A DNA stretch of 43,313 nucleotides, taken from assembly GCA_001512745.1 (NCBI GenBank), contig LFSM01000102.1, positions 1 to 43,313 of the forward strand, given 5' to 3'. The notes under the pieces are model-generated. The model had not been told where the DNA came from. It made no database searches and saw only the letters and a list, made by a program, of their open reading frames with translations. The position numbers and the translations under genes are program-made. Numbering within the stretch: position 1 is the stretch's first letter; each line of letters opens with the position of its first letter. Below, one piece after another: positions 34,413 through 42,184 of this stretch. The stretch is from Clostridiales bacterium DTU032 (GTDB lineage Bacteria; Bacillota; Clostridia; Saccharofermentanales; DTU023).

Positions 34413-34496
34413 ATGATAGGGTAGAATTATGAGGAGAAGCCGGAGGCTTGCATCCGGACAAGTTAAGTATCAGCAGCTTGTGTTTATGAGGTGAGT

Positions 34497-35327
34497 ATGG
34501 GTAATAATTTCAGTTATGATTTTTTTAAAACAAGTGCAGATTACGTCCTTTCCAGGACCGGATATCAAGTGGATCTGGCTCTGATATTAGGTTCATCCCT
34601 GGGATCGTTGTCGGAAGAGATCAAGAAGCCCATTGTAATAGACTATGCGGACATACCGAATTTTCTGGAAACAACCGTTGATTCGCATGCCGGCAAATTG
34701 ATTATTGGTGATTTGGGCGGTAAAAAGCTAGCGTGTATGTCCGGCAGGTTTCACTATTACGAAGGTTATGACTTTGAGCAGCTGGTAGCTCCGATCCGAC
34801 TCTTTCAGCTTCTGGGAGCGAAGACTGTTATTTTGACCAATGCTGCCGGCGCAGTGAACAGTTCGTTTCATGTGGGCGATATCATGTTGATAGAGGACCA
34901 TATAAAAATTATGGGAGCCAGTCCCCTGAGGGGACAGAACATTCCCGAATTCGGACCCAGATTCTTTGATGTATCAAACATGTACAGCAAGGACTTAAGG
35001 GAACTGGCCAAAAAATGCGCCAGTAGAATTGGCATGAGCCTGCGCGAGGGAGTATATTTTTATATGAGCGGTCCGCAATTTGAAACACCTGCTGAAATCA
35101 GGGCAATCAGAGCTTTGGGCGGCGACGCAGTAGGAATGTCTACAGTATATGAAGCGATAACAGCTGCCCACTGTGGTATGAAGGTTCTGGGATTATCTTT
35201 GATGACAAATATGGCTGCCGGTATGCTGGATCAGGCGGTAACAGCTGAAGAGGTTGACGAAACTGCCAGTCTGACATCAGAGAGATTCAAAAGCTTAATT
35301 AGAGAGATTATTGAGGAGATAAGTTAA
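34497..35327 (+). CDS. Purine nucleoside phosphorylase, classical low-mass trimeric PNP type
   Basis: LILGSSLG, SGRFHYYEGY, TNAAGAVN, GPQFETPAEIRAIRALGGDAVGMSTVYE and LSLMTNMAAGML. Confidence 0.93.
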   Translation: MGNNFSYDFFKTSADYVLSRTGYQVDLALILGSSLGSLSEEIKKPIVIDYADIPNFLETTVDSHAGKLIIGDLGGKKLACMSGRFHYYEGYDFEQLVAPIRLFQLLGAKTVILTNAAGAVNSSFHVGDIMLIEDHIKIMGASPLRGQNIPEFGPRFFDVSNMYSKDLRELAKKCASRIGMSLREGVYFYMSGPQFETPAEIRAIRALGGDAVGMSTVYEAITAAHCGMKVLGLSLMTNMAAGMLDQAVTAEEVDETASLTSERFKSLIREIIEEIS

Positions 35328-35337
35328 AGGGAACTTT

Positions 35338-36390
35338 ATGGAAAGATGTGATCAGGACTTAGCCTTTTTATTGAGATATGAAAATGTGGCCTGGTATGAA
35401 GATGCTCAGGTCCGCATACTGGACCGCAGGGTTTACCCGGTCCAACTTTCCTATGTCATTTGTGATACTCATCAGGAAGTTGCTCAGGCAATAGCAGATA
35501 TGGTTACACAAAGTGCCGGCCCCTATACAGCGGCTGGTATGGGTATGGCTCTGGCAGCGCATGAATGCAGGAACATGAAGGAAGCAGATAAAAGAGCTTA
35601 TCTGGCAAAGGCAGCGGATACTCTTTCCCGGGCCAGACCGACTACCGCCAGCAGAATGGAGCAGGTCACTGCCGGCTGCCTGGCTGCAGCTGATCAAGCC
35701 TTGGCAACAGGCCAGAAACTTGATCAGGCAATATTTGCCCATACCGTGAATTCTCTGAACCGCAGATATTCCACCATGGAAAAGGTGGGAAAGTATCTGG
35801 TAGATATGTTTCCTGACAAGGGCAATGTGATGACCCAGTGTTTTGGAGAGACTATCGTCGGCATGATGCTGCGCACCGCCAAAGAAAGAAATAAAGAAAT
35901 CACCCTTTACGTGCCGGAGACAAGGCCATATTTTCAAGGCTCACGCCTTACCGCCAGCCTTGCATACGAGCAGGGCTTCGATACCTACGTTATTACGGAT
36001 AATATGCCGTCATTCGTAATGGCGACAAAGGGGATTGATCTTTTTACCTCAGCTGCTGATCTTATCTGTCTGGATGGACATATAGTCAACAAAATCGGTA
36101 CTTATCAGATGGCAATTGCAGCCAACTATCATGCTATTCCCTATTTTGTCACAGGCTTGCCTGACGCAGCGCATCCCGTGATTGATACGGTAAAAATAGA
36201 AGAACGGGATCCGGCCTTAGTACTTGAAGCAGCCGGCATTAAGCATACTCTTAAAGGCGTCAAAGGTTATTACCCCTCCTTCGACATTACTCCTCCTCAT
36301 CTCATCAGTGGTGTTGTCACAGATAAAGGCATCTATTCACCCTATGACCTGGGGCGCTACTTCGACAGCAAAGTCGAACAGTTTTATTAA
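35338..36390 (+). CDS. MtnA / ribose-1,5-bisphosphate isomerase / eIF2B-alpha family sugar-phosphate isomerase-like protein
   Basis: GNVMTQCFGETIVG, VPETRPYFQGSRLTASLAYEQGFDTYVITDNM and NKIGTYQMAIAANYHAIPYFV. Confidence 0.85.
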   Translation: MERCDQDLAFLLRYENVAWYEDAQVRILDRRVYPVQLSYVICDTHQEVAQAIADMVTQSAGPYTAAGMGMALAAHECRNMKEADKRAYLAKAADTLSRARPTTASRMEQVTAGCLAAADQALATGQKLDQAIFAHTVNSLNRRYSTMEKVGKYLVDMFPDKGNVMTQCFGETIVGMMLRTAKERNKEITLYVPETRPYFQGSRLTASLAYEQGFDTYVITDNMPSFVMATKGIDLFTSAADLICLDGHIVNKIGTYQMAIAANYHAIPYFVTGLPDAAHPVIDTVKIEERDPALVLEAAGIKHTLKGVKGYYPSFDITPPHLISGVVTDKGIYSPYDLGRYFDSKVEQFY

Positions 36391-36402: not shown

Positions 36403-37017
36403 TTACTTGTCAGATGCCGGGCACAGATACTGGTCCATGACCGAATCAAAGAGGCGATCCAGCTTAACCTGCTGTTCCTGAACTGAAGGGGTATCTTCAC
36501 CGGTCCACTGAAACAGAGTAATAAAATGAATACCCATCAGCAGATCGACTAGTATATCTGTACTGACTTCTGCTGTAAGGTAACCATCCGCCTGCGCTGA
36601 TGCAACCAGCTTGTGCAGGAGAGCTTTAATTTCGCTCAAAGTGCCGTACAAGGTACTGCTTCGATTGGAATTGAGAAATACAATACGACGAGTCAGATCC
36701 GGATATTGGAGACTGGCAAAGACCAGTTCTGCCAGAACTCTGCGGACCCTGTCTAAGGCATTTGTCTCGGCAGAAAGCTCGTTTTCCAGATAATCCTCAA
36801 TATTTTCCTCGACTTCTTCGACTATGCCGATAAGCAGACTATCCTTATCGGGGAAATAATTGTAGACAGTAGCTTTGGAAACTTCGGCAAGATCAGCAAT
36901 ATCTTCAATAAAAGTCTCGTCATAGCCCTGGACGGAGAACAATTTTCGCGAAGCTTTAAGTATGCTTCTGCGAGATCTTTCTTTATTTAGTGTTCTTCTA
37001 GAATGCTTCATGCACAT
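36403..37017 (-). CDS. TetR-family transcriptional regulator
   Basis: RRSILKASRKLFSVQGYDETFIEDIADLAEVSKATVYNYFPDKDSLLIGI; the ORF track start at 37113 would run through the promoter, so a start near 37017 is likely (approximate). Confidence 0.9.
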   Translation of the reverse strand: MCMKHSRRTLNKERSRRSILKASRKLFSVQGYDETFIEDIADLAEVSKATVYNYFPDKDSLLIGIVEEVEENIEDYLENELSAETNALDRVRRVLAELVFASLQYPDLTRRIVFLNSNRSSTLYGTLSEIKALLHKLVASAQADGYLTAEVSTDILVDLLMGIHFITLFQWTGEDTPSVQEQQVKLDRLFDSVMDQYLCPASDK

Positions 37018-37044
37018 AGTATACACAAAAACTGCCTTAGAAAT

Positions 37045-37082
37045 AACTATACTTGACACTAAACTTAGAGACAAGTATAGTT
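37045..37082. promoter_or_regulatory. 38-bp dyad operator overlapping two convergently overlapping (face-to-face) sigma-A promoters
   Basis: AACTATACTTGacaCTAAacTTAGagaCAAGTATAGTT; plus strand TTGACA-N17-TATAGT, minus strand TTGTCT-N17-TATAGT. Confidence 0.85.
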
Positions 37083-37167
37083 GAAAATAACAATAAATAC
37101 GCATAATGGCCAAGAAAAGTTAGTCAATCAGACTATGTCGTCAGACAATTCAGGAAGGCGGAACTTT

Positions 37168-38712
37168 ATGAAAGTGATTGCTTATGATGTAGGAACCACG
37201 GGTCTGAAAACGTGCCTCTTTGAGATCATCGTAGGTGAAAACATCCGGTTTTTGGCCGGAGAAGTAGGTGAGTACTCCCTCACAATCCTGGAAAATGGCG
37301 GTGCCGAGCAGGATCCTGATGAGTGGTGGCAGACAGTTTGCCAAAGTACGAGGAATCTGATTGCTCATACAGGAATTGATCCCGAAGAAATTAAAGGCTT
37401 AGCCTTTTGTTCGCAGATGCAGACTGTTGTGCTGGTTGATGAAGAAGGCAATCATTTAAGACCAAGCATGAGCTGCATGGATACTCGCGCGCAAAAACAG
37501 TTCGAGGAAAATATGTGCAGGGGTCTCAAGGTCGAAGGCCTGAATGCCCTTAAAATTTTGCGCTATCTGAGCATTACGGGTGCCATATCTGCAAGTGCCA
37601 AGGACCCTGCCTGGAAATATCTCTGGGTCAAAGAAAACGAGCCTGAACTTTATTCGAAAATCTATAAATGGATTGATGCTAAGGAATACCTTACCTTCAG
37701 AGCAACCGGTAATCTAAAGGCGACTAAAGATGATGCCAACCTTACCTTCCTTTTTGATGTAAAGAAGTCTCAGTGGAGTGAGAGTCTTTGCCGGATGATC
37801 GGAGTAGATATGGACCATCTGCCTGAAATATGTGAAGCCACAGATGTAGTTGGCGGACTTAAAGCTGACTCAGCACAGGAATTAGGACTTCTTGAGGGAA
37901 CTCCTGTATTCGGCGGCGGCGGAGATGTCAGCCTTTGTCAGATAGGCGCGGGTTGTGTCGAAGTAGGCGATGTCAACTTTTATTCAGGAACTTCCGGCTG
38001 GGTCTGCACTACAGTGGACAGAATGCACCTGGATATAGGAAATCTGGTGGCAGGTGTTATCGGCGCCGATCCGGAGACATACAACTATATCGCTGAGCTG
38101 GAAACAGCAGGCAAGTGTATTGAATGGGTGAAAGAACGTCTCAGTCACACTCCGATGGAGGAGTATGACGAACTCTTTGAATATATTAAAGATACTCCGG
38201 CGGGGAGCAATGGAATCGTCTTCTCTCCCTGGATGCACGGCAACCGCTGCCCCTTTGAAGATAGTTATGCCCGTGGCGTCTTCTTCAATGTAGATGTCAG
38301 CAGTCGTGGCAGCGACCTGATCAAGTCTGTCATCGAAGGTGTCTGCCTTCACATGCGCTGGATGCTTGAAGCGACAGAAGAGACCTTTGCTACAAGCCCT
38401 GTTGTGCGCTTTACCGGAGGCAGTTCAATGTCACCCATGGTTTGCCAGATCTTAGCAGATGTTTTGGGCCGTGAGCTGGAAACCATTGAAAATCCACGTT
38501 ATGTAGGCGCCATGGGTGCCGCCGGTGTTATGTCAGTCGGACTCGGACTTTCAGATAATATTAAGGAAATAAAGAAGATTATCCGGGTAACAGATAAGTA
38601 TAGTCCAATCCCGGAAAATACCGCTGTCTACGACAAAATATATCCAACCTTTAAAAATCTCTATTTCGATAACAAAAAATCATTTAGTGCCCTTAACAGT
38701 GAGGGTTGTTAA
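37168..38712 (+). CDS. FGGY-family carbohydrate kinase, xylulokinase-like
   Basis: MKVIAYDVGTTGLKTCLFE, AEQDPDEWW, FYSGTSGWV and RFTGGSSMSPMVCQILADVLGRELE; RBS ggaaggcgg before ATG 37168. Confidence 0.92.
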   Translation: MKVIAYDVGTTGLKTCLFEIIVGENIRFLAGEVGEYSLTILENGGAEQDPDEWWQTVCQSTRNLIAHTGIDPEEIKGLAFCSQMQTVVLVDEEGNHLRPSMSCMDTRAQKQFEENMCRGLKVEGLNALKILRYLSITGAISASAKDPAWKYLWVKENEPELYSKIYKWIDAKEYLTFRATGNLKATKDDANLTFLFDVKKSQWSESLCRMIGVDMDHLPEICEATDVVGGLKADSAQELGLLEGTPVFGGGGDVSLCQIGAGCVEVGDVNFYSGTSGWVCTTVDRMHLDIGNLVAGVIGADPETYNYIAELETAGKCIEWVKERLSHTPMEEYDELFEYIKDTPAGSNGIVFSPWMHGNRCPFEDSYARGVFFNVDVSSRGSDLIKSVIEGVCLHMRWMLEATEETFATSPVVRFTGGSSMSPMVCQILADVLGRELETIENPRYVGAMGAAGVMSVGLGLSDNIKEIKKIIRVTDKYSPIPENTAVYDKIYPTFKNLYFDNKKSFSALNSEGC

Positions 38713-38775: not shown

Positions 38776-40218
38776 ATGAAACAAAATTATGGCGTTTCCA
38801 AATGGCCTGACATCGAGGAAATCAACTCCAAGATGGACAAGCTGCTACAAGCAGATATTCTGCATCTTAAAGCAGATGCCAAGGCCCGTTACATGGATTA
38901 CTTTGACACAAAGTGCAAGCGTTCAAAGGAGATAATTGCTGAGGCCCGTCAGTTTATTCCGGGCGGTGTACAGCATAATCTGGCTTTTAACTTTCCTTTC
39001 CCACTTGCAGTCGACCGTGCAGAAGGAGCTTACCTTTATGATGTTGACGGCAACCGCTATGTAGATTATTTACAGGCCGGCGGCCCCACTTTACTGGGAA
39101 GCAATTATAAGCCGGTAACTGATAAAGTTATTGAGGTAATCCAAAAACATGGAGCTGTAACCGGTTTATTTCACGAATACGAGCTCAAACTGGCAAAAAT
39201 CATTAATGAATGTATGCCCTGGGTAGAGCAATATCGCTGCTTCGGCAGTGGTACAGAAGCTTGCATGGCTGCCATTCGCGTGGCCCGTACTTTTACCGGT
39301 AAAAAGAAGGTTATAAAAATGGGCGGAGCTTATCACGGCTGGAGTGACCAGCTGGTGTATTCCCTGCATATTCCATATACCAAAACCTTCGAGGCTCACG
39401 GCATACCCAAAGAGTGTGTAGCAAATACCACTGAATGTGCGCCGGGGGATATCGATTCCTTGCGTAAAGTATTAGAAGAAAATGAGAAAGACGGTGGTAC
39501 GGCTTGCTTTATTCTGGAAGCTTTCGGCCCGGAAAGCGGCACCCGCATGATGCCTTTAGATTATTGTGCTCAGGCGCGCGAATTGTGTGACGAGTTTGGC
39601 ACTTTGCTCATCTTTGACGAAGTTGTAACTGCTTTCCGTATAGGTCCGGGCGGAGCAGCCGGTTTCTTAGGTGTCAAACCTGATTTAACGGTTATGGGCA
39701 AGATTGTTTCCGGTGGTTTCCCAATGGCTGGCGGAGTCGGCGGTCGCGCGGACATCATGAGCTGCATGGCAGCCGGTGTCCAGTCAGGAAAACAGCGCGC
39801 TTATGTCGGAGGCACACTCACAGCCAACCCACTAAGCTGTGCAGCAGGTTATTATGCCATCAAGGAAATAATTGAGCAGGATGCAGCCCGCAAAGCCGGC
39901 GAGAATGCTGACAAGCTTTGTGCCGGACTCCAGTCCTTAATCGACAAATACGAGCTGCCCTTTGTAGTTTGGAATACAGGTTCAATTATTCATTTTGAAG
40001 TCTCAGGTGTTATGTATCTGTCTGTACAGGATCCTGAAATATTCAACAAGATATCCGAACGCAAAAAGAGTATGGAAGAATTTGGTGCAGCTTTAACAGC
40101 CAACGGTGTTATAACTCTGGCTGGCAGCCGTATTTATACAAGTATGGCAGACAATGATGAAACATTAGCTGAAACCCTGACCGCTTTTGAAGAAGTATTC
40201 AGCAATGTAGAAAGATAG
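38776..40218 (+). CDS. Class III aminotransferase / GSA 2,1-aminomutase-like PLP enzyme
   Basis: FIPGGVQHNLAF, FGSGTEACMAAIRVARTFTGKKKVIKMGGAYHGW, LIFDEVVTAFR and MGKIVSGGFPMAGGVGG (PLP lysine). Confidence 0.92.
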   Translation: MKQNYGVSKWPDIEEINSKMDKLLQADILHLKADAKARYMDYFDTKCKRSKEIIAEARQFIPGGVQHNLAFNFPFPLAVDRAEGAYLYDVDGNRYVDYLQAGGPTLLGSNYKPVTDKVIEVIQKHGAVTGLFHEYELKLAKIINECMPWVEQYRCFGSGTEACMAAIRVARTFTGKKKVIKMGGAYHGWSDQLVYSLHIPYTKTFEAHGIPKECVANTTECAPGDIDSLRKVLEENEKDGGTACFILEAFGPESGTRMMPLDYCAQARELCDEFGTLLIFDEVVTAFRIGPGGAAGFLGVKPDLTVMGKIVSGGFPMAGGVGGRADIMSCMAAGVQSGKQRAYVGGTLTANPLSCAAGYYAIKEIIEQDAARKAGENADKLCAGLQSLIDKYELPFVVWNTGSIIHFEVSGVMYLSVQDPEIFNKISERKKSMEEFGAALTANGVITLAGSRIYTSMADNDETLAETLTAFEEVFSNVER

Positions 40219-40230
40219 CAGGAGGTCTTT

Positions 40231-41547
40231 ATGATTAAGAAGTTGGATATAGAAAACCTGACTCATGCCTTTCCGGAAGTAGCCTATGATGAGGATTATG
40301 TCATTGCGACTTTCCAGATACGGGCAGAGACCAAGAATATGGAAAAGCTGGCCCTGGCAATTGCCAGTGAGCAGGCCACGGGTACCTGGATTAAAGTTAG
40401 CGGAGATTCTCTGGAAAAACAGAGAAAGCACGGCACTAAGGTCGTCGCTATCTATGAAGTTCCTGATTGGGGCGCTGACAGGGTTGAGGACCTGCCATCC
40501 TTATACATCGTACAGGTTGCTTTCCCCATGGCAAATTTCGGCGACAGCATACCGATGATGCTAACATCAGTTTTCGGCAACATTTCCGCTTCCGGTATGT
40601 TGAAGTGGATAGACGTAGCCTTCCCTAAAAAATATATAGATAAATTTAAGGGGCCAAAATTTGGTGTACAGGGACTAAGAGACCTGCTTGGAGTTCAGGA
40701 CAGGCCTCTCCTGAATGCAATGATCAAGCCGAATATCGGCTGGACACCGGATGAAGGCGCAGAAATCTTCTATCAGGCAGCTAAAGGAGGTGTCGACATC
40801 ATCAAAGATGACGAACTCCTCCCGGCAGATGAAAGCTTTTGCCCTCTGGAAGAACGTGTAACAAAATTCATGGCTAAGGAAAAGCAGGTCTATGAGGAAA
40901 CAGGGGAGCATACACTTTATGCTGTCAATATTACAGACCGCACAGAAAAGATCAGGGACAATGCTCTGCGAGCCATTGACAAAGGTGCGAACTGCCTGAT
41001 GCTTAACGTTTATACGTCAGGCCACGGTGCACTTCATATGCTGGCGGATGATCCCGACATCAATGTCCCCATCCTCGCACACGTCGACTTTGTCGGAGCC
41101 TATGCGGGTTCAACTTACACCGGTATTTCAGCTCCGCTGGTGATTGGAAAACTCACACGTCTGGCAGGAGCGGATTTCCAGATCAACGGTCATCCCTGGG
41201 GAAAATTTCCGGTCCCCTTTAAAACTTTCTACCGCAGCTTCAAGTTCTTTACCCAGCCCTGGTGGCATATTAAGCCAATGATGTACGCTGTTTCCGGCGG
41301 TACAACTCAGCTGGTAGTGAGAAATGCGGTGGATGCAGTCGGCACAGATATTATTCTGGCAGCAGGCGGCGGTGTGCATGGCCATCCGGACGGCAGCTGT
41401 GCCGGTGCCAAGTCAATGCGTCAGGCAATAGATGCAGCAGTTAAGGGAATAGACCTGATCGAGTATGCTAAATCTCATGAGGAACTCATGCGCATGGCTC
41501 AGATGTTGGATCCTGATGTGCTGAAAAACTTTGATTTGTTAAAGTAA
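40231..41547 (+). CDS. RuBisCO-like protein (form IV RuBisCO superfamily)
   Basis: NAMIKPNIGWTPDE, GGVDIIKDDELL, LYAVNITDRT and LAAGGGVHGHPDGSCAGAKSMRQA. Confidence 0.93.
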   Translation: MIKKLDIENLTHAFPEVAYDEDYVIATFQIRAETKNMEKLALAIASEQATGTWIKVSGDSLEKQRKHGTKVVAIYEVPDWGADRVEDLPSLYIVQVAFPMANFGDSIPMMLTSVFGNISASGMLKWIDVAFPKKYIDKFKGPKFGVQGLRDLLGVQDRPLLNAMIKPNIGWTPDEGAEIFYQAAKGGVDIIKDDELLPADESFCPLEERVTKFMAKEKQVYEETGEHTLYAVNITDRTEKIRDNALRAIDKGANCLMLNVYTSGHGALHMLADDPDINVPILAHVDFVGAYAGSTYTGISAPLVIGKLTRLAGADFQINGHPWGKFPVPFKTFYRSFKFFTQPWWHIKPMMYAVSGGTTQLVVRNAVDAVGTDIILAAGGGVHGHPDGSCAGAKSMRQAIDAAVKGIDLIEYAKSHEELMRMAQMLDPDVLKNFDLLK

Positions 41548-41551
41548 AAAT

Positions 41552-42184
41552 ATGTACGATACGATTTTATTTTTAGATTTTGACGGTACTATTACCAGTG
41601 AAGACACTTTGGAAGGATCGATGCAGCTTTGCATCGACCCTTCCATTTATGAAGAAGAGAAGAAGGCATTGACTGCCGGAGAACGCAGCCTGTCTGATAC
41701 CCTGCATTTGGCTTTCAACATGATTCCTTCCAGCAAAATTGATGCTATTCTTGACTATGTTGATCAGGTGGCTTTGCGCCCCGGCTTCGAAGAACTGCTG
41801 GATGTAGCAGATGGCCTGGGCATCCCGGTTGTTGTCATTTCCGGTGGTCTGGAAAGCTATATTGAGAGAAAACTAGCCCCCTACAAAGATAAGATACTTG
41901 ACTTTCACGGTGTAGGAGTCGATCTCAGCGGTGAACATATCAAGCTTATATCAGCCTATGAAACTAAGGGCGAACTGGTGCAAAAAACTCTTATCATGGA
42001 CCAGTATGAATACAAAAAGGCTATATCGGTCGGTGACAATATTACCGATTATCGCATGGCTCTGGCCTCTGATCAGGTTTTTGCACGCGATACACTGGCT
42101 GCGATCATGGAGAAAAACAAACTGCCCTTTACTCCCTGGGAAGATTTTTATGATGTAGCCCGTTCGATCAGCAGTTCCAAATAA
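41552..42184 (+). CDS. HAD-superfamily phosphatase, MtnX-like
   Basis: LDFDGTITSEDT, VVVISGGLESYI, SVGDNITDYRMA and VFARDTL...LPFTPWEDFYDV, resembling MtnX. Confidence 0.85.
   Translation: MYDTILFLDFDGTITSEDTLEGSMQLCIDPSIYEEEKKALTAGERSLSDTLHLAFNMIPSSKIDAILDYVDQVALRPGFEELLDVADGLGIPVVVISGGLESYIERKLAPYKDKILDFHGVGVDLSGEHIKLISAYETKGELVQKTLIMDQYEYKKAISVGDNITDYRMALASDQVFARDTLAAIMEKNKLPFTPWEDFYDVARSISSSK

Follow-up and report, generated by a model that had tools for sequence, protein, structure and literature searches.

What reaction is catalyzed by a RuBisCO-like protein (RLP) that keeps most, but not all, of the active-site residues of Rubisco? The question is raised by a gene near the end of the window, which is the whole 43,313-nucleotide stretch analyzed here (contig LFSM01000102.1 of Clostridiales bacterium DTU032). 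To our knowledge, few RLP reactions have been characterized, namely those of methionine salvage and apionate breakdown, and the operon in which this gene lies makes a candidate addition to them. Moreover, a protein that combines the loop-6 lysine, E60, and the SGG motif with loss of the second phosphate site offers a natural test of which residues serve enolization and which serve carboxylation. The features discussed are collected in Table 1.

Table 1. Genes and active-site features of the RLP operon; bracketed equivalents are in spinach RbcL numbering.
Feature	Position	Strand	Basis
TetR-family regulator, divergent, position conserved	36403..37113	-	profile match and neighborhood comparison
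FGGY carbohydrate kinase, XylB-like, below xylulokinase cut-off	37168..38712	+	profile match
Class III PLP aminotransferase (AT3), GSA-aminomutase-like, below GSA-aminomutase cut-offs	38776..40218	+	profile match
RuBisCO-like protein (RLP), 438 aa	40231..41547	+	ORF, Pfam, predicted structure, tree
KPN motif: K166 (=K175), P167, N168 (=K177, replaced by Asn)	40726..40734	+	alignment
KDDE, residues 192-195: K192 (=K201), D194 (=D203), E195 (=E204), metal ligands	40804..40815	+	alignment
K325 (=loop-6 K334)	41203..41205	+	alignment, model, covariation
S355-G356-G357 (=S379-G380-G381), intact	41293..41301	+	alignment
G379-G380 (=G403-G404)	41365..41370	+	alignment
HAD phosphatase, closest to MtnX (PDB 2fea), below MtnX cut-off	41552..42184	+	profile and structure match

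A clostridial RLP with most of the Rubisco active site

The open reading frame that the first-pass annotation had assigned to an RLP was correctly located, and its product is a form IV member of the RuBisCO superfamily with the N-terminal and TIM-barrel domains. It matches the Pfam families RuBisCO_large (PF00016, E=2.6e-51) and RuBisCO_large_N (PF02788, E=6e-13), and in a Foldseek search of the PDB its predicted structure (pLDDT 86.6) lies nearest to MtnW, the C. tepidum RLP, and form III Rubisco (TM 0.8-0.9), with similarity also to the Photo-type RLPs 1tel and 2qyg (C. tepidum RLP and R. palustris RLP2). Comparison with a relative of 97% identity gives a dN/dS of 0.04, which indicates strong purifying selection on the gene. 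In the maximum-likelihood tree, the protein falls within a clade of eight full sequences (support 100/100), hosted by gut and digester anaerobes, that is nested in a wide clostridial RLP radiation and stands apart from MtnW (100/100), Rubisco (forms I and III; 100/99), and OiaX together with the RLPs of acid-sugar-kinase operons (100/100). The RLP is therefore not a copy of any characterized subgroup compared, and on sequence grounds it belongs to a real, well-conserved, uncharacterized clostridial subgroup.

Active-site residues were aligned with those of spinach RbcL (identical to PDB 1ir1), form III Rubisco, MtnW, and approximately 60 relatives, and spinach numbering is used here. The RLP retains E60, T65, W66, N123, K175, P176, K201 (the lysine that is carbamylated in Rubisco), D203, E204, H294, K334, S379, G380, G381, G403, and G404. 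The only catalytic positions altered are K177 (Asn), R295 (Val), and H327 (Ile), of which the latter two are ligands of the P2 phosphate in Rubisco. All eight full members of the clade share N177, V295, I327, and S379, while RLPs neighboring the clade mostly carry C177 and G379. As aligned, the residue set amounts to a nearly complete Rubisco complement from which K177 and the ligands of the P2 phosphate are missing. The first-pass annotation had called the site mixed, and its motif readings stand in part: the KDDE motif is kept, and KPK has become KPN with its first lysine preserved. Its reading of SGG as AGG (LAAGGGVHGHP), however, arose from a misalignment, as that stretch corresponds to spinach G403-G404-G405 and the intact S379-G380-G381 is found in VSGGTTQ; the retention of N123, H294, E60, T65, and W66 and the loss of R295 and H327 had been overlooked. 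The aromatic-rich stretch to which it had drawn attention (FYRxFKFFTQPWWHIKPM) is present and is kept throughout the clade.

The lysine of GHPWGKF, proposed from the outset as the loop-6 lysine, can be equated with K334 because three lines of evidence agree. The two proteins align here without gaps (DHIHSGTVVGK in Rubisco, DFQINGHPWGK in the RLP), and in the model K325 does not lie away from the active site but in the beta6-alpha6 loop, between a strand at 316-320 and a helix at 330-341. The third line is covariation with position 60, which touches residue 334 across the subunit interface in Rubisco. Among 61 sequences, an acid at 60 is accompanied by Lys or Arg at 334 in 48 of 48, and of the 13 without such an acid, which carry Gly60, a base occurs at 334 in only 1 and is lacking in 12 (Fisher p=7e-12, a nominal value because the count ignores shared ancestry). 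MtnW has Ser at position 334, in keeping with the first-pass statement that it lacks a lysine there.

An operon in which the RLP alternates with a class II aldolase

Upstream of the RLP gene stand the FGGY kinase and class III aminotransferase genes, and downstream of it a HAD phosphatase gene, with successive gaps of 63, 12, and 4 bp; the TetR gene in front of them is divergently oriented. The start of the kinase was set at MKVIAYDVG, the mechanical open reading frame beginning at 37081. The phosphatase has MtnX as its closest solved structure but scores well short of the MtnX models (100 bits against a cut-off of 292, and 89 against 303). As the kinase, the aminotransferase, and the phosphatase all fall below every specific family cut-off, none of them pins down the substrate. 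No description of this operon was found in our literature searches.

The order TetR-FGGY-AT3-RLP(-HAD) is kept in ten-odd genomes, with RLPs that are 64-97% identical, and its carriers include Mageeibacillus, Anaerovorax, Christensenellaceae, and other metagenome-assembled genomes (MAGs); one host is a named strain, Anaerovorax odorimutans SL.3.17 (L004). The functions recur even where the proteins differ, since one genome with a divergent RLP (G206; RLP 48%, AT3 62%) still has a kinase, though a different one, the aminotransferase, and a phosphatase from another HAD subfamily, and the kinase in the same slot at L004/L005 is just 31% identical. There is no phosphatase beside the RLP at L003 and L008/G037, so this enzyme may be dispensable or encoded elsewhere. 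Some operons carry a transporter distantly like D-galactonate carriers. In a Mageeibacillus MAG (UBA5439), two open reading frames (L002:6857-8485) make up the FGGY kinase, the result of a frameshift, decay, or assembly error, and two genomes (L089 and L092) have another FGGY kinase, 43% identical, immediately before the cluster.

A search with the aminotransferase brought up, in the genome from which the window comes (G000), a paralogous operon on contig 65 (L147:7229-12229) comprising a TetR regulator, an FGGY kinase, a class III aminotransferase, and a class II aldolase. More widely, the AT3 subfamily with its FGGY kinase comes in two versions, having either a class II aldolase or an RLP (12 genomes). 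At RLP-less loci with an AT3 at least 52% identical, the partner is a class II aldolase in 14 of the 14 that could be assessed, a count that leaves out L150, cut by a contig end, and L157, where AT3 is only 47% identical and an FGGY kinase is present with neither aldolase nor RLP. The kinase is visible at 12 of these 14 loci, the aminotransferase lying near a contig start at the other two. Five of the 14 came from an independent genome draw (phylum), in which 5/5 adjoin the aldolase; additional genomes of the class likewise have the aminotransferase and aldolase side by side. In the AT3 tree a single branch (100/97) splits the RLP-linked from the aldolase-linked set, and the long rows L073 and L157 join near the root. 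Since one aminotransferase subfamily is found with either enzyme, the RLP and the aldolase look like alternative next enzymes, an arrangement that makes the substrate searchable. Fuculose-1-phosphate-type aldolases and known RLPs both use ketose-1-phosphates. The aldolase operons, which as far as we found are also uncharacterized, share with the RLP operon the kinase, the aminotransferase subfamily, and often the TetR regulator, and differ in having a fuculose-1-phosphate-type aldolase where the latter has the RLP and phosphatase.

A proposed enolization of a mono-phosphate

Metal-dependent enolization of a mono-phosphate is the likely mechanism class, judging from the residues, with which it is consistent because the metal, general-base, P1-phosphate, and loop-6 residues are kept (bar K177) and the P2 ligands R295 and H327 are lost. 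In the proposed pathway, the FGGY kinase would phosphorylate an imported polyol or sugar, and the aminotransferase, assumed to act before the RLP, would remove or relocate an amino group, yielding a 2-keto-1-phosphate that resembles a ketose-1-phosphate. The RLP would hold the single phosphate of this substrate in its P1 site and, with Mg2+ bound at a presumably carbamylated lysine, would abstract the proton next to the ketone, the enediolate being stabilized under the closing loop 6. The product would be an isomer, epimer, or enol of the intermediate, from which the MtnX-like phosphatase would then take off the phosphate; in the sister operons, the same kinase and aminotransferase pair would feed the class II aldolase, which would cleave the intermediate. 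We give roughly even chances to the RLP being a ketose-1-phosphate-type enolizing enzyme that replaces the aldolase in a pathway, so far undescribed, for an amino-polyol or amino-sugar. That the reaction is also new to the superfamily, acting in place of the class II aldolase on a mono-phosphate made by the kinase and aminotransferase from an amino-polyol or amino-sugar, is put forward more tentatively, at somewhat below an even chance.

Alternative reactions

Several alternatives draw on two genes that lie upstream of the cluster as a unit (34491-36390) and encode a purine nucleoside phosphorylase (PNP) of the inosine/guanosine type and an MtnA-family isomerase. These were considered as pathway members and rejected: the MtnA-family gene also turns up in genomes that lack the RLP, elsewhere it lies on different contigs, and in G002 approximately 11 kb separates the pair from the RLP cluster, with a nucleoside-type ABC transporter between MtnA and the cluster. 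The MtnA-family protein of the window may isomerize ribose-1-phosphate or deoxyribose-1-phosphate; a second homologue, 32% identical, is encoded on contig 11.

The first alternative is a DeepYkr-like isomerase of ketose-1-phosphates (MTRu-1-P or 5-deoxyribulose-1-P) in anaerobic salvage of 5'-deoxynucleosides. DeepYkr RLPs act on MTRu-1-P (PMC5893883). An enzyme like the MTRu-1-P 1,3-isomerase of R. rubrum and R. palustris (RLP1) would suit a ketose-1-phosphate substrate in the absence of O2, and the kept P1 and lost P2 sites, the upstream PNP-MtnA unit, and the transporter in G002 point the same way. Compared by operon and reaction rather than by sequence, however, the two systems differ: the MTA-isoprenoid shunt of R. 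rubrum has no role for a kinase or an aminotransferase, its methylsulfurylase cupin gene was not recognized beside the RLP cluster, and PNP-MtnA is not conserved with that cluster. This reading is unlikely.

A divergent MtnW-type enolase is unlikely. Under this explanation PNP, MtnA, kinase, aminotransferase, RLP, and HAD phosphatase would imitate MtnP-MtnA-MtnK-MtnE-MtnW-MtnX, and a similar layout is found in Bacillus (mtnE-mtnW-mtnX-mtnB). MtnW (YkrW clade, the 2,3-diketo-5-methylthiopentyl-1-phosphate enolase) shares with the RLP its fold, 35-37% identity, KDDE, a mono-phosphate substrate (proposed for the RLP), and a neighboring MtnX-like phosphatase and aminotransferase; the closest PDB sequences to the RLP are MtnW, and its top NCBIfam model is PRK09549. 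Against this, that match reaches 341.8 bits where the cut-off is 409, and TIGR03332 gives 304 bits against 513.6. The RLP has Asn (N117, at spinach N123) in place of Lys98, which we take to be the catalytic base (GkMtnW) and which is Lys in all MtnW rows, and its E60, K334, P176, and SGG are those of Rubisco rather than MtnW. With its placement outside the MtnW clade, these differences led to the rejection of MtnW identity. The pathway itself also differs, with an FGGY kinase instead of MtnK. Methionine salvage is unlikely because the genome yielded no match to ARD (MtnD) and none to MtnB above its cut-off, although at 88% genome completeness these absences are not final; the sole MtnB-like match was to the AT3-linked aldolase, at 68 bits where the cut-off is 137.

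Also unlikely is an OiaX-like decarboxylation of a 3-keto acid phosphate, in which K334 would hold the carboxylate; OiaX is the 3-oxo-isoapionate-4-phosphate decarboxylase of apionate breakdown. In the breakdown of carbohydrates OiaX, too, follows a sugar kinase, the RLP keeps K334, K175, and the metal site, and there is the D-galactonate-carrier-like transporter of some operons. However, identity with OiaX is ruled out by score (197 bits, cut-off 700) and by its distant clade, and the operon kinase is of the FGGY type, not the four-carbon acid-sugar kinase of OiaX-type operons.

Most improbable is a genuine carboxylase, with PNP, an R15P-isomerase-like protein, a kinase, and Rubisco forming a nucleoside pentose-bisphosphate route: despite the upstream unit and the many residues shared with form III Rubisco (Pyrococcus horikoshii, 2cwx/2d69), which has the RLP's E60, T65, W66, N123, K175, K201/D203/E204, H294, K334, S379-G381, and G403-G404, carboxylation is unlikely because K177, R295, and H327 are missing, replaced in every full clade member, and the form III Rubisco model (280.6 bits, cut-off 497), the R15P isomerase model (125 bits, cut-off 314), the separate Rubisco clade, and the FGGY-aminotransferase-phosphatase operon all weigh against it. 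The earlier suggestion that the protein fits neither carboxylases nor, in any obvious way, DK-MTP-1-P enolases, and that its reaction may differ, is supported by residues, tree, and gene context.

Other RLPs were seen in different surroundings. Those of another clostridial group, approximately 50% identical and with C177 and G379 (L078, L079, L080, L084, L085, L107, and L108), adjoin genes for a PEP_hydrolase-like protein (PF09370), UPF0261, and a 2-phosphosulfolactate-phosphatase-family protein. The RLPs of L082, L087, L105, and L106 neighbor galactitol-type PTS genes, a SorC-like regulator, and a class II aldolase, which suggests sugar catabolism. At L099, L100, L102, and L103, where the RLPs are mostly without K334 and without E60, the neighbors are RpiB, triosephosphate isomerase, a class II aldolase, UPF0261, and ribose-type ABC transporters, a set reminiscent of tetrulose-phosphate pathways. 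On plasmids, the RLPs examined were either MtnW or had four-carbon acid-sugar kinase or OiaX-type genes as neighbors.
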